DNA of 64,000 nt from Candidatus Eisenbacteria bacterium (GTDB lineage: Bacteria > Orphanbacterota > Orphanbacteria > Orphanbacterales > Orphanbacteraceae). Positions 1,603 through 13,154 of the stretch are shown piece after piece (within the stretch, counting starts at the first letter, position 1; each line of letters starts with the position of its first letter). The position numbers and the translations under genes were made by a program. The notes beneath the pieces are model-generated. The model was given only the letters and a program-made list of their open reading frames with translations, ran no database searches and was not told where the DNA came from. Location: the NCBI GenBank assembly GCA_016930695.1, contig JAFGGD010000046.1, positions 1-64,000 of the forward strand, in the 5' to 3' direction.

Positions 1603-3138
1603 TCAGCCGACCGGGATGGGACGGGGGGCGGCGAATCCGTGGGTGAGGCGGTCCGCCAAACGGGCCAGATCCTCCGAAACCCTGTTCTCCGTGTCGATCT
1701 TCCAGAAGGGGATGTACGAGAGGTCCTCTCCCCGGACGGCGGGCATCACCGCCGTGCGGCCGTCGCGGACGGCGTCGGCGATCCCCCGCGCCATCCGCCG
1801 GGCCAGGACCATGTCCAGGTTGTTGGGAATCGCCCCGCGGAGATCGCGCGAGAAAGGCTCGCTGACGATTTTCTTGTTCGATGTGATCCCCGTGGATTCG
1901 AGCTGGTGGGCGAACCAGGCGGCGGCGTGCAGCCCCAAGCGGCGGCGCTCCGGATCGTCGGCGCCGTAGCCCTCCGCCACGGCGACCACGGCGTAGTCCT
2001 TCCTGTTCAGCGCCTCCATCACCGCGCGCGGGTTGAGGTCCGCTCCGGGGAGAACCGCGAGGTGCGCGCGCGCGCCCAGACTGGAGTACAGGGCGTGAAA
2101 ACCGCCTCGGGCGCCCATCATCTCGATCAGATAGATCCTCTTGTGGGTGCGCGCGTCCGCCATATAGCGGCGCAGCTTGTCGGCGCCGACTTCGACACCC
2201 GTATGCTGGCCGATGCATTCGGTGCCCGCCACGTCGCTGTCCACGGTAACGGGCACGAAGGCATTCTGCGTCGTTTCCGCCAGCCGTCCCGCCAGATCAC
2301 GGGTTCCCTTGAGCGTGCCGTTGCCGCCGATGGTCACCAAGACACGCACGTTGCGGGCCGCAAGCACGCGCGCCGCGGCGAACTGCTTCTCCGGCTCCCG
2401 GAAGTCGTCGTAGCGCTCGCTCCGGAACTGCCCTCCCGCCGCTTCCGTGAGAAAGGCGGCGTTGACCACGCCGGGAATGCTCTCGATCCGACGGTACTCC
2501 TCCTGGTCGTAGACCAGGCGAACGAAATCCTCGTCTTCGCCGCGCACGAGCGAGCGGAACCCCTCGCGGGCGCAGTACACCCGGCGCCCGTGGGTTTCGA
2601 GTTCCTCGGTGAGGAAAGCCGTAACCGGGTTGTAGCCGGGGGCGCACCCCCCCTCCTGCACCAGAAGCACGTCGATCTCCCGGTACATACGCCGCCGGGC
2701 CATCTCGTGTCCCCGGCTGCGGACCAAGGTCCTCTCCCCCGCCCGGATTCGGGCGAGCAGATCCTCCTGCGGCACGGGAGAGACGGCGAAACCGTCGGCG
2801 CCCTGGGTGAACCAGAAAGCCTCCGCGTCCGGACCCGCCCCCTCCTCCTCCAGGGCGATGAACCAGGCGGCGGCGGTGGCGGGGGTCGATTTCAAGCGGG
2901 AGCAGAGTTCCACCCCGTCCACGCCGTTCGCGCGGACGGAGCAAATCACCATGTCCGGAACGGCGTCGCCGATCGAGGCGAGCGCCTCCCGCGTGGAACC
3001 GGCGGACTGCACGCGGTAGCCCTGTTTCTTCAGGAAGGGATAGACGCGGAACTGCGCGTCCAGATCGGAATCGATCACCAGAATGCGAAGCGGCGCCGCC
3101 GGGCCGCTCGAATCGATTGCGCCGGAAATCGGACTCAC
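1603..3138 (-). CDS. degenerate receiver domain fused to a 6-phosphofructokinase-like domain
   Basis: 511 residues with a GTG start behind GGAGAGGAAATC. Residues 18-125 look like a CheY-type receiver (start RILVIDSD), but the phospho-accepting Asp is Ser67 and the conserved Lys is Ser120, so it probably cannot be phosphorylated. Residues 155-500 follow phosphofructokinase order: EGGCAPGYN (compare GGDAPGMN), IGGNGTLKG (compare GGDGS), VTVDSD with the catalytic Asp300 and Asp302, HKRIYLIEMMG with the substrate-binding Arg, and VAVAEG. The Mg-binding Asp of GGDGS is Asn273, and the Arg after MG is Ala, so activity is not certain. It follows a histidine kinase gene by 15 bases and ends the mot-HDOD-kinase run. 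A role joining sugar-phosphate metabolism to motility is inference. Confidence 0.8.
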   Translation of the reverse strand: MSPISGAIDSSGPAAPLRILVIDSDLDAQFRVYPFLKKQGYRVQSAGSTREALASIGDAVPDMVICSVRANGVDGVELCSRLKSTPATAAAWFIALEEEGAGPDAEAFWFTQGADGFAVSPVPQEDLLARIRAGERTLVRSRGHEMARRRMYREIDVLLVQEGGCAPGYNPVTAFLTEELETHGRRVYCAREGFRSLVRGEDEDFVRLVYDQEEYRRIESIPGVVNAAFLTEAAGGQFRSERYDDFREPEKQFAAARVLAARNVRVLVTIGGNGTLKGTRDLAGRLAETTQNAFVPVTVDSDVAGTECIGQHTGVEVGADKLRRYMADARTHKRIYLIEMMGARGGFHALYSSLGARAHLAVLPGADLNPRAVMEALNRKDYAVVAVAEGYGADDPERRRLGLHAAAWFAHQLESTGITSNKKIVSEPFSRDLRGAIPNNLDMVLARRMARGIADAVRDGRTAVMPAVRGEDLSYIPFWKIDTENRVSEDLARLADRLTHGFAAPRPIPVG

Positions 3139-3153
3139 GATTTCCTCTCCTTC

Positions 3154-4731
3154 CTATCGTTCCTTCACGCCGCCGGGCGCCGCCGGCAGGCGGATCGTGA
3201 AGCAGGCGCCGCGGCCCCGCCCGGATTCCAGAGTGATCGAGCCGCCGTGGTCCTCCACGATTTTTCGCGTCACCGCGAGGCCGAGGCCCGTCCCCTTGCT
3301 TCCCTTGGTCGTGTAGAGGGCGTCGAAAATCCTCTCCCTCTCCTCCTCGGGAATGCCCGGGCCGTCGTCACGGACCACCACCTCCACGCCCCCTCCTCCG
3401 GCCGGCCGGCCGGTGCGGATTTCCACGCGCCCGCCGGCTTCGACAGCCTCGACGGCGTTTGTGGTCAGGTTGGAGAGACAGCGGAAAATGCCCGTTTGGT
3501 CCGCGCGGGCCGGAGGAGCCCCTTCGTCGATCGCCGTCTCGAGAACGACCCCCTTGGATTCCGCCAGCGGTTGCATGGTCGCCGCGATCTCCCGGACCAG
3601 GGCGTTCATGTCGACGGCGGCCAGCCGGAGCCGCCCCCCCTTGGAATAATCGAGCATGTCCAGCACCAAACCGGAGATCCGGTCGATGGCGCTCCCGATC
3701 AAGGGAACGGCGCGGCGTACGCTCTCCAGGTCGCCGCCGTCGGTACCCATCCGTACGAGGCTGTAGCCGCTGCGCACCGCCTGGAGCATGTTCTTGATGT
3801 CGTGGGAGAGGCCGGCCATCACCTGGCCGATCGTCGCCATCCGCTCCTTCCGGACCGCTTCCCTGTGGAGCATCGCGTTCTCCACGGCGATGGCGGCGAT
3901 GTGACCGATCTCCTCGGCGGCGCGCAGGTTGTGCGAGCCGGGCCACGTGTCGACCGGGTTCGCCGCCTGCAGCACGCCCATGACCCGCCCGCCGGAAAGG
4001 AGGGGCATCACCAGAAGCGTCTTCAGGTTCAACATCTCCAACCCTTCCGGGGGATCCTCCGGCTCCGGGTCCTCCAGGATGAGGGGGACCCCCGCCTCGG
4101 CGACCCGCTCCGCCGCCGAACGCCCCTCCAGGCGGACCGCTCGGGTCAGTTCCTCCGGAAGACCGATGATGTATTTGGTCGTGAAACCTCGACCGTCCCA
4201 GAGCATGACCGAACCGACCTCGCTCCCGAGCAGCTTGAGAATCTGCTCCAGGGAACGGGCGAGAACGTAGTCCATGTCGAAACTGCCGACCAGGGTGTGG
4301 ACCTCGCCGATGATCTCCCGGTCCAGGCGGCTCTGGCGCGATTCCCGATCCGCGTCGGACCAGAGCTGCAGCTTGATCATCGCCGCCGCGAGCTGATCGC
4401 TTAGCACATCGAGGTCTTCCCTCTCCGTCTCCTCGGGGGCGGCGACGCGAAGATCGCCGATCACATCGTCTCGGAAATGAAGGGGGACGACGATCCAGTC
4501 GTCCAAGTGTCGGCCGGTGGTCGTGGCGCCCAACCGCGCCACCGAACCGAGCCCCTCGGCATACGTGCGAGACGCCTCGCCCGACGCGCCGGAAAGCTCG
4601 ATCCGCCAGGGAACGCCCCCGGCGAGCGATTCCAGCGCGCGGCCGAAAGCGAAAGCCAGTTCCTCCCTGTCGAGGGCTTCGTGCATCCCCGCCAGGGATT
4701 CGATCCACCGGTTCGCAGTCGTCGTCGCCAT
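3154..4731 (-). CDS. soluble GAF-domain sensor histidine kinase
   Basis: 525 residues from the ATG at 4731; the frame is open further upstream but that part overlaps the HDOD gene. No membrane segment is visible, so it is probably cytoplasmic. A possible N-terminal sensory region is followed by a GAF domain (about 160-295), then the phosphorylation helix with GLSHDIKNML (His near residue 310) and a GHKL ATPase domain with DDGPGIP and GTGLGLAV. Both the phospho-acceptor His and the ATP site are intact. It sits between an HDOD gene and the receiver-phosphofructokinase fusion with tiny gaps, so the three are probably made together. The fusion's receiver lacks its Asp and cannot be the phosphate target, so the true partner is unknown. 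Confidence 0.88.
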   Translation of the reverse strand: MATTTANRWIESLAGMHEALDREELAFAFGRALESLAGGVPWRIELSGASGEASRTYAEGLGSVARLGATTTGRHLDDWIVVPLHFRDDVIGDLRVAAPEETEREDLDVLSDQLAAAMIKLQLWSDADRESRQSRLDREIIGEVHTLVGSFDMDYVLARSLEQILKLLGSEVGSVMLWDGRGFTTKYIIGLPEELTRAVRLEGRSAAERVAEAGVPLILEDPEPEDPPEGLEMLNLKTLLVMPLLSGGRVMGVLQAANPVDTWPGSHNLRAAEEIGHIAAIAVENAMLHREAVRKERMATIGQVMAGLSHDIKNMLQAVRSGYSLVRMGTDGGDLESVRRAVPLIGSAIDRISGLVLDMLDYSKGGRLRLAAVDMNALVREIAATMQPLAESKGVVLETAIDEGAPPARADQTGIFRCLSNLTTNAVEAVEAGGRVEIRTGRPAGGGGVEVVVRDDGPGIPEEERERIFDALYTTKGSKGTGLGLAVTRKIVEDHGGSITLESGRGRGACFTIRLPAAPGGVKER

Positions 4732-4738
4732 AATCCGC

Positions 4739-5704
4739 CTATCCGAGGAAGGAGAAGAGATCGCCCGCGCCGGCGCTCTGCTCGGAGTAATCATTGAGCA
4801 GATCCCCGAATCCCGATTCGGAGATCCCCAAGAGGCCCAGCGCCCGACGCTCCCGCTCCGGATTTTCATCGGCGGCGCCGAGTCCCATACCGAGCCGCCG
4901 CGCCCCCGCGTCGGCGAGGGTCACCAGCTGGACTTCCCTCTCGAAATCCTCCGGTTCCCCCTCGCAACTGTGGTGGCAGCGCACGCACCGGGTGGTCACC
5001 GGCGCGAGCTTCCACTTCGCGGCGATCATTTCTCCCACTCCGGCGTGGGTGACGCCGGCCACCCGTTTCTCCCACTGGCGCTCCGTCTCGCCGCCGCCCG
5101 AGCGGAGCGACGCCTCGCCCCGCCCGATCACGTCGGTGAGAATGCCGGAGAGCACGATCTTGCCGATGTCGTGAAGAAGCCCGCCGACGTAAACCGCCTC
5201 CTGAACCTCTTCCTCGTCGCCGGAGACCCGGGCGAGACGGCGGGCCAGCTCGGCGGTGCCGTAGGAGTGCAACCAGAGACCACCCGCGCCCATGCCGTAG
5301 GCGTCCATGCCGCCGGAGAGGAACTTGAGCGTCGCCGCCGCCATGGCGAGGCTTTTCACGGTCTGCTGGCCGAGCATCACCACCGATTGCCGGATCGACG
5401 CCACCGAGGAACGGGGGGAGTAGAAGGCGGAGTTCGCCAGCTTGAGCAGCCGGGCGGCGATGACGGGATCCTTTTCGATGCACGTCTCGAGATCCCCCGC
5501 GGCCGAGTCGTCGCTTTGGGTCAGGCCGATCAGTTCGGTGAGAACGGTGGGGAACGGCGGCAACCGGTCGATCCGCGAATCGATCTCCGTCGAAATCCGC
5601 CGGAGGCGGACCTCGCTCGGCTGATGGATCGGCGGCGAGCCGCTCTCACCGAACCCGGCGGCCGCTTCCGCCCCCTTCCGCACCCAGAGGACCTTTTGCG
5701 TCAT
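4739..5704 (-). CDS. HDOD domain signalling protein
   Basis: 321 residues. The HDOD domain fills about residues 40-240, with LLKLANSAFYS and the HD-like motif GGLLHDIGKIVL, which keeps His-Asp as in HD hydrolases. HDOD proteins are non-enzymatic or poorly defined scaffolds often tied to motility, c-di-GMP signalling and kinase control. No output domain is attached. It lies 24 bases downstream of the second motB-like gene and 7 bases upstream of the GAF kinase start, which suggests that it works with that kinase. The first 25 residues look unstructured, so the real start could be slightly downstream. Confidence 0.88.
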   Translation of the reverse strand: MTQKVLWVRKGAEAAAGFGESGSPPIHQPSEVRLRRISTEIDSRIDRLPPFPTVLTELIGLTQSDDSAAGDLETCIEKDPVIAARLLKLANSAFYSPRSSVASIRQSVVMLGQQTVKSLAMAAATLKFLSGGMDAYGMGAGGLWLHSYGTAELARRLARVSGDEEEVQEAVYVGGLLHDIGKIVLSGILTDVIGRGEASLRSGGGETERQWEKRVAGVTHAGVGEMIAAKWKLAPVTTRCVRCHHSCEGEPEDFEREVQLVTLADAGARRLGMGLGAADENPERERRALGLLGISESGFGDLLNDYSEQSAGAGDLFSFLG

Positions 5705-5728: not shown

Positions 5729-6439
5729 TTACACGCCGCCGCAAGCCGGCTCGCACTCCAATATGATTTCCACGCGGCGATTGATCTCTCTGTGTTCATC
5801 GTCGTTCGGCGCGACGGGCGACGAATCGGCCATCCCCATCGCGGCAAGCTTCGATCCGGCGATTCCCCGCGTCTCGAGGTAGCGAACCACCTCGACGGCG
5901 CGCGCCACCGAGAGATCCCAATTGGACGGGTAGAGAACGGTGTGGATCGGCAAATCGCAGGTGTGGCCGACGACGGTCGTGTTCCCCGACCATTCCCGGA
6001 GAAAGAGGACCACTTCGTCCAGCACCGGCGACGCCCCGGGCTTCAGCATCGCTCTCCCCAGATCGAAAAGGACCAGGCTCCCCAAGGTGAGCCGAAAACC
6101 GTCATCGGTGATGTCCACGCGGAAGAGCCCCGCCAGATCGTCGCCGAGTATCTCGTCGATCTGTTCTTTCAGCTCCACGGCTTCCCTCACCTTGGCCTGT
6201 GCCTTAAGGGGGAGCACGCCCGGTCCTCCCTCGTCCGCGATCGACTCCCCCGCGCCGCTCGTCAGCATGGAGAAGGCGCCGTGAACCGAACCGATCGCCT
6301 TTCGGAAGCGCGGTCCCTCCATCTGCGCGAGGGAGACCATGATCACCATGAAGCAGAGCAGGAGGAGCATGAGCGCGATGAAGGTGATCTCCTGCGACTC
6401 GTCCGCCGGCTCCAGTTTCTCGCTCTTCTTCGCGGCCAT
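5729..6439 (-). CDS. MotB-like OmpA-domain protein lacking the channel aspartate
   Basis: 236 residues: a short cytoplasmic start, one membrane helix (about 18-38), a linker, and an OmpA/MotB peptidoglycan-binding domain (about 110-230) with VVGHTCDLPI and NWDLSVARA. In MotB the membrane helix carries an essential ion-binding Asp (GDLATLL in the neighbouring MotB). Here the aligned stretch reads TFIALMLLLLCF, with Ala22 at that place. It should therefore not conduct ions by itself and may act as a stator partner, brake or anchor. It lies 18 bases downstream of motB and is surely co-transcribed with motA-motB. The alignment of the helix is clear; the function is inference. Confidence 0.85.
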   Translation of the reverse strand: MAAKKSEKLEPADESQEITFIALMLLLLCFMVIMVSLAQMEGPRFRKAIGSVHGAFSMLTSGAGESIADEGGPGVLPLKAQAKVREAVELKEQIDEILGDDLAGLFRVDITDDGFRLTLGSLVLFDLGRAMLKPGASPVLDEVVLFLREWSGNTTVVGHTCDLPIHTVLYPSNWDLSVARAVEVVRYLETRGIAGSKLAAMGMADSSPVAPNDDEHREINRRVEIILECEPACGGV

Positions 6440-6457: not shown

Positions 6458-7195
6458 TCAATCCTCGTATTCGAGGCGGATATCGACGCGGCGGTTTCTC
6501 CGCCGGGCTTCTTCGTTCACGTTCGGAAAGCGGGGGTGGTACTCCCCGCACGCCTTCGCGGCGATGGCGCCTCCGGCGACCCCTTCGCCGACGAGAAAGC
6601 GGACCACCTCCGCCGCCCGCGCCCCCGAAAGGTCCCAGTTCGAACCGTAGCGGCCGGTTCGGACCGGGAGATCGTCGGTGTGCCCCTCCACCGTCACCCG
6701 CCAGGGCCGCTCGCGGATGATTTGCGCGATCGAACGGAGCACCGGCGCCGCCTTCGGATCCAGTTCGGCGCCGCCGGAGCGGAAGAGAACCGGTTCCTCC
6801 ATCCGGAAGAGGATCCCCTTTTCCAGGAGAGAGATTCCCAGATTCTCCCCGTACTCGGTCGATCCGGCCAGCCCGAGGAGTTGCTCCATTCCCTGGACCG
6901 ACTCGGGATTGTCGAGCTCGAGACGGGTGATGATCATCGAAAGAAGGGGGACCGCTTCGGTCCCCGCGTTCAACATGCCGCCGCTCCCGCGCTCGATGAG
7001 ACCGACCCGGGACTCGCCGGGCGTGAGACCGAGCATCCGTTCGATCGCCCCCTGGGCGGTTTCCCAGTCGCCGGGCTGATACGTGGAGGAGGCGTAGATC
7101 AGCACATAGAACGTGAGTAACAGCGTCGCCAGATCGCCGAAGGTGGCCAACCAGGACGCCGGCTCCTCCTGCCCCGGACCCTTCTTCCTCGCCAT
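6458..7195 (-). CDS. motB: flagellar motor stator protein MotB
   Basis: 245 residues. Single membrane helix near residues 16-40 with FGDLATLLLTFYVL, in which Asp21 matches the ion-binding Asp of MotB/PomB. The C-terminal OmpA-like domain (about 120-240) carries VEGHTDDLPV and SNWDLSGARA, which hold peptidoglycan. With MotA it forms the ion-driven stator that turns the flagellum. The gene starts 2 bases after the motA stop codon, so translation is coupled. Proton or sodium use cannot be decided from sequence alone. Confidence 0.95.
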   Translation of the reverse strand: MARKKGPGQEEPASWLATFGDLATLLLTFYVLIYASSTYQPGDWETAQGAIERMLGLTPGESRVGLIERGSGGMLNAGTEAVPLLSMIITRLELDNPESVQGMEQLLGLAGSTEYGENLGISLLEKGILFRMEEPVLFRSGGAELDPKAAPVLRSIAQIIRERPWRVTVEGHTDDLPVRTGRYGSNWDLSGARAAEVVRFLVGEGVAGGAIAAKACGEYHPRFPNVNEEARRRNRRVDIRLEYED

Positions 7196-7197
7196 GA

Positions 7198-7974
7198 CTA
7201 GGAGCTTCCGATCAGCTTCAGATCGTTACGGATCGCCGGCGGGAGGAAAGTCTTCAGCTTCCGCTCGACCAACCGAGGATTATCCCCCGCCTGAATCGCC
7301 TTGATCCCCTCGAGGATCAGTTCCTTGACGAGAACCTCGTTTTCCGAGATCGCATCGAGTTTGCCGGCGATCGGGTTGCAAATCATGTTGGCCACGAGGG
7401 TGCCGTAGAAGGTGGTGATCAGCGCGACCGCCATGCCCGGACCGATACTGGAGGGATCGTTCACGTTCCGCAGCATCTGGATCAGGCCGATGAGCGTGCC
7501 CATCATGCCGAAGGCGGGGGCGTACTTCGCCATCTGCTTGAACATGCCGCTCCCCCGGCTGTGCCGGTCCGCGAGCAGCGTGAGTTCCATCGTCATGAGC
7601 GCGTCGATCCGCTCCAGGTCCATTCCGTCGATGGCCAGTTCCATCCCCGCCCGAAGGAAGGCGTCGTCCGCCACCTTCAGGTCCTTCTCCAGCGCGAGGA
7701 GACCGTCCCGCCTCGCTTTCTCGGCGAAACCGACCAGTGTGCGGATCGTATCCTCCGGAGAGGCGGTCTTGTTCAGGAAGGCGTTCTTCACGACCTTCAT
7801 GACGCCGAGGAAATCCGAGAGCGGGTAGTTGATCAGCGTCGCCGCGGCGGTTCCGCCGATCACGATCATCATGGATGGAACGTTGATGAAAGTGGCGATG
7901 CCGCCGCCCATCAAAATAGACAGGAGAAGCAGACCGAAACCGGAGGCGATCCCGATGACGGAAGCGAGATCCAT
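7198..7974 (-). CDS. motA: flagellar motor stator protein MotA (PomA-like)
   Basis: 258 residues with four membrane helices, two near the N-terminus (about 5-25, 32-50) and two near residues 145-200, separated by a cytoplasmic loop. Motifs APAFGMMGTLIGLIQML and TTFYGTLVANMICNP are those of the MotA/PomA family, including the conserved prolines of the last two helices. The length matches PomA (about 250), not the longer E. coli MotA. It pushes on FliG in the rotor. It is followed immediately by motB and preceded by flbD. Confidence 0.96.
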   Translation of the reverse strand: MDLASVIGIASGFGLLLLSILMGGGIATFINVPSMMIVIGGTAAATLINYPLSDFLGVMKVVKNAFLNKTASPEDTIRTLVGFAEKARRDGLLALEKDLKVADDAFLRAGMELAIDGMDLERIDALMTMELTLLADRHSRGSGMFKQMAKYAPAFGMMGTLIGLIQMLRNVNDPSSIGPGMAVALITTFYGTLVANMICNPIAGKLDAISENEVLVKELILEGIKAIQAGDNPRLVERKLKTFLPPAIRNDLKLIGSS

Positions 7975-11639: not shown

Positions 11640-13154
11640 TTATGAGGAAATTTTGTGAGGAACGGCGTTGTCGTTGGAACATCGTTCCGATTCGACGAGA
11701 TGTTCCTTCGCTTTTTCCGAATCGCCCAGCTTGTGGTAGAGCCCGGCGAGGCGGCGATGCGCCTCGACGGAGCCGGGACACAGCCCCGCCAGACGGCGGT
11801 AGCTTTCCACCGCGCCGCGAAGATCGCCCCGAACGACGCGGAGCCGCGCTTGGAGGTCGACGAGATCGGCGCTCTCGACCGACCGGAGCGCGCCATCCAC
11901 GACCGCGAGCGCCGAGGCGGGATCCCCCCCGCGGACCCGCACGACGGCGAGGTCTCGAACCGTTTCGATCCGGTCCGGTTCTCTGTCGAGGGCGCGGCGG
12001 AAGGATTCCTCCGCGCGCGCCCAGTCCTCGCGCGCCGCCGCCGCCCGTCCCAGAAGCCGGTGCCCGCCCCCCCAACCGTCGTTCTCCCGAATCACGCGCT
12101 CCGCCTCCCGCTCCGCCTCGACGGTCCTTCCCATGCGGAGGAGCGCTTCGCCCCGAAGCAGGTGCGCCTTCGCCCGGTCCGGCGTGAAGCCGAGGAGCGT
12201 CTTTCCGCCGGAAAGGGCCCGGTCGCACAGCTTCAGATAACGGTCCACGTCCCGAACCGCGCCCTCCGGATCGCCGGTCCGAATGCGCGCCGACGCGAGC
12301 ACCAGCCAGGCCGCGACGGCCGAGCCGGCGCCGGTCCGTGCCGCCCGTTCCGCCTCCTCGATCGCTTCCGCCGCGCGGCCGAGCCGGAGAAGAGCCGCGG
12401 CGAGATTCTGTCGCGTCGCCGCCGAATGATCCGCGGAGAGGCCGCCCCGGGCGATCGCCCCGGAGTACGCCTCCACCGCCCGTTCCGGATCGCCGAGGAG
12501 GGTGTGGGTCTCACCCAGATGGAAGAGGACGAGGGCGCTCTCCGGCCGCTCCTCCCGGTCCATCTCGAGCAGCCGGAGGTTCCTCTCCAGTTTACGGCGG
12601 CGCGACTCCCGGTCCATCGCGTACCCGCTGTGATCGATGGTGAGGTCCGAAAACCGGACGCGCGCGCCCGTCCGCTCCAGCGAAGGAAGGATCTGCTCGT
12701 GCACCCTCCCCTCGAAGCGGTGCGCCGGATGGTTGCGGAAAAGCCGCGGAAAGGCGTGAATGGAAAAGCGGCCCTCGTCCGCGTCGGCCAGGGCGCTTCG
12801 CAGCCGAACGAACCAGGCGTCGGCGCGCTTCTCCTCGAGAAGACGCCTCAGCTTCCCGCCCTCCCTTTCCGGGAGGGTTTCGTCCGCGTCGAGGCAGAGA
12901 ACCCAAACGCCGGTCGCCGCTTCGAGACCGTGGTTCCGCGCGTCGGAGAAGTCGTCCCGCCAGGGCCGCTCGATCACCCGCGCGCCGTGGGAGCGGGCGG
13001 CCGCCACGGTTCCGTCCGTCGAACCGGTGTCGACCACCACCACCTCCGCGGCGAAGGGGGCGACGCTCTCGATCGCGACGGGGAGGCGCTCCTCCTCGTT
13101 CTTCGCGATCAGGCAGACCGAAAGGGGCGGGCCGGCGGCTTCCCTACCGTTCAT
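11640..13154 (-). CDS. family 2 glycosyltransferase with C-terminal TPR repeats
   Basis: 504 residues. The GT-A domain (about 8-230) begins PPLSVCLIAKNEEERL, with VVVDTGSTDGT and the metal-binding LCLDADE. From about residue 230 to the end it is a string of tetratricopeptide repeats. This GT2-TPR design resembles peptide or protein glycosyltransferases such as the SunS group and large flagellin-glycosylating enzymes in which TPRs hold the protein substrate. The start overlaps the end of the upstream gene by 11 bases. Position just before flagellin suggests a filament glycosyltransferase; the sugar is unknown. Confidence 0.88.
   Translation of the reverse strand: MNGREAAGPPLSVCLIAKNEEERLPVAIESVAPFAAEVVVVDTGSTDGTVAAARSHGARVIERPWRDDFSDARNHGLEAATGVWVLCLDADETLPEREGGKLRRLLEEKRADAWFVRLRSALADADEGRFSIHAFPRLFRNHPAHRFEGRVHEQILPSLERTGARVRFSDLTIDHSGYAMDRESRRRKLERNLRLLEMDREERPESALVLFHLGETHTLLGDPERAVEAYSGAIARGGLSADHSAATRQNLAAALLRLGRAAEAIEEAERAARTGAGSAVAAWLVLASARIRTGDPEGAVRDVDRYLKLCDRALSGGKTLLGFTPDRAKAHLLRGEALLRMGRTVEAEREAERVIRENDGWGGGHRLLGRAAAAREDWARAEESFRRALDREPDRIETVRDLAVVRVRGGDPASALAVVDGALRSVESADLVDLQARLRVVRGDLRGAVESYRRLAGLCPGSVEAHRRLAGLYHKLGDSEKAKEHLVESERCSNDNAVPHKISS

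Follow-up and report, generated by a model that had tools for sequence, protein, structure and literature searches.

A gene that ends a motility operon encodes a degenerate receiver domain fused to a phosphofructokinase (PFK) module. With moderate confidence, and judging from sequence, we propose that the product is an atypical, probably active sugar-phosphate kinase that is controlled by its N-terminal signalling domain and has lost the classical effector site. PFK is a textbook allosteric enzyme, and this proposal, if true, would mean that PFK can also be controlled in another way, through fused domains instead of ligand sites at subunit interfaces. Known mechanisms are lacking for pseudo-receivers, and an enzyme with measurable activity on the same chain would make one directly testable; should the protein and the neighbouring kinase act together, central carbon metabolism would also be tied in a concrete way to the flagellar motor. 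The gene lies in a 64,000-nucleotide stretch of contig JAFGGD010000046.1 from a Candidatus Eisenbacteria bacterium (the window), where we distinguished the following features.

1603-3138, minus strand: pseudo-receiver–PFK fusion gene (PsR-PFK), single open reading frame, 511 aa, GTG start; Pfam PF00072 and PF00365
1642-2688, minus strand: atypical PFK module, residues 151-499; PF00365, 1.3e-39; motifs GGNGT, VDSD, THKR, EMMGA, and AEGY
2743-3084, minus strand: pseudo-receiver domain, residues 19-132; PF00072, 4.9e-11; aligned to 3t6k, PleD, and CheY
3144-3154, minus strand: purine-rich ribosome-binding site GGAAGGAGAGG between the kinase stop and the fusion start; GGAG to GTG, 8 nt
3154-4869, minus strand: GAF-domain histidine kinase directly upstream of the fusion; GAF, HisKA with SHDIKN H-box, HATPase_c
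4739-5704, minus strand: HDOD protein; PF08668, 6.6e-48
5729-6439, minus strand: MotB paralogue 2, without the proton-binding Asp (Ala at the position of E. coli D32)
6458-7195, minus strand: MotB paralogue 1, proton-binding Asp kept
7198-7974, minus strand: MotA; PF01618, 9.2e-29

The fusion is one intact gene

A preliminary description of this DNA had proposed a receiver–PFK fusion at 1603-3138 on the minus strand, with a Pfam search as the check and with a missing PFK match or a frameshift between two genes as grounds for rejection. The 511-residue frame is unbroken, with no internal stops or frameshifts, and both domains scored above their curated cut-offs: PFK (PF00365) at residues 157-454 (E = 1.3e-39; 136.7 bits vs. 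30.9) and Response_reg (PF00072) at residues 19-132 (E = 4.9e-11; 43.2 bits vs. 30.2). Third-position GC content (GC3) was 0.86 for the gene, compared to 0.83-0.87 in its neighbours. Thus, the Pfam matches, the open frame, and GC3 exclude both grounds for rejection, and the fusion is real. An assembly chimera or a frame error joining two genes might still be suspected in a draft genome of 60 contigs, as no second copy of the exact fusion is known, but the single open frame, the uniform GC3 of the two halves (0.85 and 0.87), the completeness of both domains, and a counterpart of the linker (residues 130-150) in PFKs from two other genomes (G601 and G179) largely refute this explanation, which we consider very improbable. 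A single-sequence AlphaFold2 model of the fusion protein had a mean pLDDT of 36 and was not used. In the open-access literature, a scope that makes the result weak evidence, we found no report of receiver–PFK or cNMP–PFK fusions, in agreement with the preliminary description, which knew of no receiver–PFK precedent.

The N-terminal domain is a pseudo-receiver by sequence

In alignments to 3t6k, PleD, and CheY, the five receiver active-site positions (D, D, D, T/S, K) read D, S, S, E, S: Ser replaces the phosphoacceptor Asp and the second acidic residue, Glu replaces the Thr, and Ser replaces the Lys, with the aromatic residue three positions before the Lys kept as Phe. Because of this pattern, we classify the domain as a pseudo-receiver, incapable of Asp phosphorylation; it fits the published definition (PMC12632262) as one of the aspartate-less kind. 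The preliminary description had treated the receiver as ordinary, a view at odds with the loss of four of the five active-site residues, the Asp among them. Phosphorelay from the neighbouring histidine kinase to the receiver was ruled out, as the receiver has lost the Asp along with the Thr, the Lys, and the second acidic residue. In ShkA, a pseudo-receiver binds the HisKA domain without phosphotransfer (PMC12632262), which sets a precedent for such a mode of action. The fusion protein resembles other aspartate-less atypical response regulators in having a PF00072 match without the phosphoacceptor Asp; as for outputs, phosphofructokinase is mentioned in neither PMC12632262 nor PMC4395418, the latter of which names pyruvate phosphate dikinase and HDOD as enzymatic outputs.

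The PFK module belongs to a rare clade with exchangeable N-terminal domains

Genome surveys, which are samples of draft genomes, covered 386 genomes domain-wide, 24 of the G069 phylum, 195 of the G034 phylum, and 386 of the G053 phylum, with some overlap; a second sample, of G179 relatives, coincided almost entirely with the domain-wide 386. PFKs of the type found in the fusion were present in 10 of roughly 900 genomes, and these 10 represent four phyla of small or medium size: they are the window genome (G000), G179, G601, and seven genomes from the phylum of G069. A tree of 39 PFKs placed the ten proteins in a single clade (support 100/100) whose branch is 2.2 substitutions per site long; inside it, the window, G179, and G601 proteins grouped together (95/94). 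Identity to the window protein was 52% for G179, 49% for G601, and 38-41% for the G069 group. Scans of viral contigs with the clade alignment and of plasmids by tblastn gave no match, and a contig scan for close relatives of the fusion returned unrelated receivers only.

The clade exchanges its N-terminal domain, which is a pseudo-receiver, a cNMP-binding domain, or none. Among the ten genomes, the receiver fusion occurs in the window genome only, a cNMP-binding domain (PF00027, E = 4.8e-17) takes the N-terminal place of the pseudo-receiver in the G601 protein, and the other eight members (G179 and the seven of the G069 phylum) show no extra domain, the latter seven as judged from their open frames. 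The G179 gene (L048 3351-4971) immediately follows a PTS EIIA gene and lies opposite genes for transketolase and transaldolase, hinting at a pentose-phosphate or fructose-related substrate. Frames of the G069 group are 372-419 aa long, one of them cut at a contig end, and the genes lie near ligA in all three genomes examined. Because the window genome holds two other PFK genes, which can serve glycolysis, and G069 has at least one further PFK gene, both genomes have the clade member on top of other PFKs. We also note that the cNMP–PFK gene of G601 (L072 1060-2553, plus strand), an architecture that is possibly unreported so far, adjoins nuoJ-like genes and not motility genes.

Catalytic residues are kept and the effector site is lost

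Sites in the PFK module were numbered by E. coli PfkA, whose sequence we checked to be identical to 1pfk; save for the donor-type signs cited below, we take the roles of individual residues from general knowledge of PfkA. The window protein retains G11, R72, T125, D127, D129, R162, M169, G170, E222, and R252, and carries the substitutions D103N, G124V, N128S, R171A, and R243K, the alignment around K213 and R243 being less secure. Its TVDSD aligns to TIDND of PfkA and preserves the T-x-D-x-D pattern of the catalytic base. The motifs quoted in the preliminary description (VTVDSD, HKRIYL, VAVAEG, GGNGT, and EMMGA) are present and align with PfkA T125-D129, R162, E222, D103, and R171, respectively. 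All clade members retain D127, D129, R72, R162, E222, and R252, and a 7-member clade alignment shows no variation in the catalytic Asp pair or in THKR. At the effector site, R21, R25, R54, and R154 of PfkA correspond to A, E, a gap, and M in the window protein; R21, R25, and R154 are replaced in all clade members, which have either a gap or a different residue at R54.

These residues set the protein apart from both established classes. It shares with ATP-dependent PfkA (group A, PF00365) the fold family by profile, the Asp pair, R72, R162, E222, R252, and the Gly at positions 104 and 108 that is found in ATP-dependent enzymes, GGDG and a Gly opposite BbuPFK Asn181 being signs of the ATP type (PMC12203962). 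It differs from PfkA, however, in its identity of ~25%, in R171A, N128S, G124V, and R243K, in the lost effector arginines, in an insert of ~20 residues before the R72 loop, and in the N-terminal pseudo-receiver; scores against the PfkA equivalogs TIGR02482 and PRK03202 were below cut-off (94 vs. 371 bits and 127 vs. 253 bits), and the Mg-binding Asp103 and the Arg171 of PfkA are Asn and Ala, a difference that is weak in its position-103 part because Asn or Glu occurs there in 14 of 35 other PFKs. The protein resembles PPi-dependent PFKs (GGDD / PKTIDND) in looking non-allosteric and in having His at the E187 position, as do several PPi-type sequences, but the PPi signature is absent, with Gly in place of Asp104, Val in place of Lys124, and Gly at 108.

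The preliminary description read the Asp-to-Asn change in GGDGS as a hint of a non-enzyme. In 35 non-clade PFKs drawn from diverse genomes, position 103 is Asn in 8 and Glu in 6, all with a T/S-I/V-D-N-D motif. Because Asn and Glu are common there alongside an intact motif, GGNGT is no argument for lost activity; the base is also kept across the clade, and we rejected the change as evidence for a sensor. The replacement of the Arg after MG by Ala, also pointed out in that description, is real and within the clade is confined to the window protein and its closest relatives, G179 and G601; we regard it as the main hint of changed chemistry.

The invariant catalytic base and most substrate residues, kept across several phyla, argue for an enzyme, and the missing effector site and the two kinds of N-terminal signalling domain together argue that control may have moved to the front end. 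The main rival, which we consider somewhat unlikely, is a non-catalytic sensor, in which sugar-phosphate or nucleotide binding by the PFK module is signalled via the pseudo-receiver to the GAF kinase or the motor. It keeps this standing because of Arg171 → Ala and the very long clade branch, and it would also suit the two other PFKs of the window genome, the signalling-domain fusions in two of the ten genomes, and the position beside a kinase in a motility operon. Mere binding, however, would not need D127 and D129, which are invariant over 38-52% identity and several phyla, and other PFKs whose TIDND motif is intact commonly carry the GGDGS change. The sensor idea of the preliminary description is kept only as this rival, and without receiver phosphorylation. 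For the active-kinase proposal, R171A and the branch of 2.2 substitutions are the adverse evidence, and the substrate or even catalysis may be altered.

The fusion is a lineage-specific occupant of the operon end

Upstream of the fusion and on the same strand are fliC, fliS, fliD, motA, two motB-like genes, and the HDOD and GAF histidine kinase genes; the names FliS and FliD rest on position and sequence, and the other products were matched to Pfam. The fusion is the last gene of the motA-motB-motB-HDOD-kinase operon, so that its placement with motA-motB, HDOD, and the GAF kinase in the preliminary description was correct. About 144 bp downstream is a gene for a Cache-domain receptor, which the end of the contig truncates. 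The true start of the kinase is probably the ATG at about 4731, because the longer frame overlaps the HDOD gene. A gap of 15 bp separates the kinase stop from the PFK start, with GGAAGGAGAGG directly after the stop, and co-translation of the kinase and the fusion is therefore likely.

We found no full-length match to the fusion in the other six genomes of the phylum (1 of 7 with the window genome). In G001, the order from the glycosyltransferase–TPR gene to the kinase is conserved, and a second HDOD protein takes up the final position. In G004 and G002, motA-motB-motB is followed by a gene of the type of G001's second HDOD, and the first HDOD gene and the kinase are absent at this place. The slot after motB or the kinase thus holds an HDOD gene in three relatives (L063 9243-10142, L070 9070-9942, and L071 8901-9803); this HDOD type is missing from the place in the window genome, which has the PFK fusion there instead. 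These results, together with the lack of a fusion in the six other genomes, show that the fusion is a lineage-specific occupant of the operon end. Pairing of kinase and PFK is not obligate, because the kinase orthologue in G001 has no PFK beside it. In the other genomes examined, the neighbours of clade genes are sugar-phosphate genes, ligA, or nuo-like genes, and none was seen near motility genes; co-localisation with mot genes is found in the window genome only.

The same observations bear on another possibility, that the protein is an ordinary accessory PFK isoenzyme with a degenerate receiver, inserted into the operon by chance and unrelated to swimming. The HDOD gene in the slot of three relatives, the finding of no other clade member near motility genes, and the presence of the fusion in one of seven genomes of the phylum favour it; the tight 15-bp spacing with a dedicated ribosome-binding site directly after the kinase stop, the second kind of signalling domain fused in G601, and the clade-wide loss of the effector site speak against it, and we judge it unlikely.

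A proposed mode of control

In the active-kinase proposal, the PFK module would be a catalytic sugar-phosphate kinase of the PFK superfamily, acting on a fructose-6-phosphate-like substrate with ATP as the presumed donor. With the classical nucleotide/PEP effector site gone, control would have shifted to the N-terminal signalling domain, where partner docking or ligand binding at the pseudo-receiver would most likely switch the PFK module; the co-encoded GAF histidine kinase would be the first candidate partner. Because a single genome has the receiver fusion, regulation of PFK by the pseudo-receiver is argued by analogy with the G601 fusion. A role in swimming is possible, given where the gene lies in one genome. 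The link between energy state and swimming suggested in the preliminary description is drawn from gene position, and elsewhere the clade lies beside sugar-phosphate genes, ligA, or nuo-like genes. We also entertain, as a rather doubtful extension, that the PFK-like module is an exchangeable signalling effector or sensor, which here would tie sugar-phosphate state directly, and with no need for Asp phosphorylation, to a histidine kinase and the flagellar stator operon.

The trypanosomatid flagellar fusions of PGK to cNMP-binding domains (PMC4106842) offer a parallel, in that they combine a glycolytic fold with a signalling domain in the context of a flagellum, and they recall the cNMP–PFK of G601; they differ in being eukaryotic, in containing PGK, and in being stated to be degenerate, and we claim no homology. 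Pfam was remarked in 2014 to be without fusions of cNMP-binding domains to glycolytic enzymes (PMC4106842).

Other features of the motility locus

The tandem MotB-like pair after motA is conserved in all four genomes of the phylum examined. In each, the first protein keeps the proton-binding Asp and the second lacks it (window 5729-6439, minus strand; L063 12780-13544; L070 8315-9040; L071 8225-8929), and the second is possibly a heteromeric or regulatory stator subunit. Directly upstream of fliC, the window also encodes a family-2 glycosyltransferase with TPR repeats (11640-13154, minus strand), kept in two of three relatives, which is a candidate flagellin glycosyltransferase.
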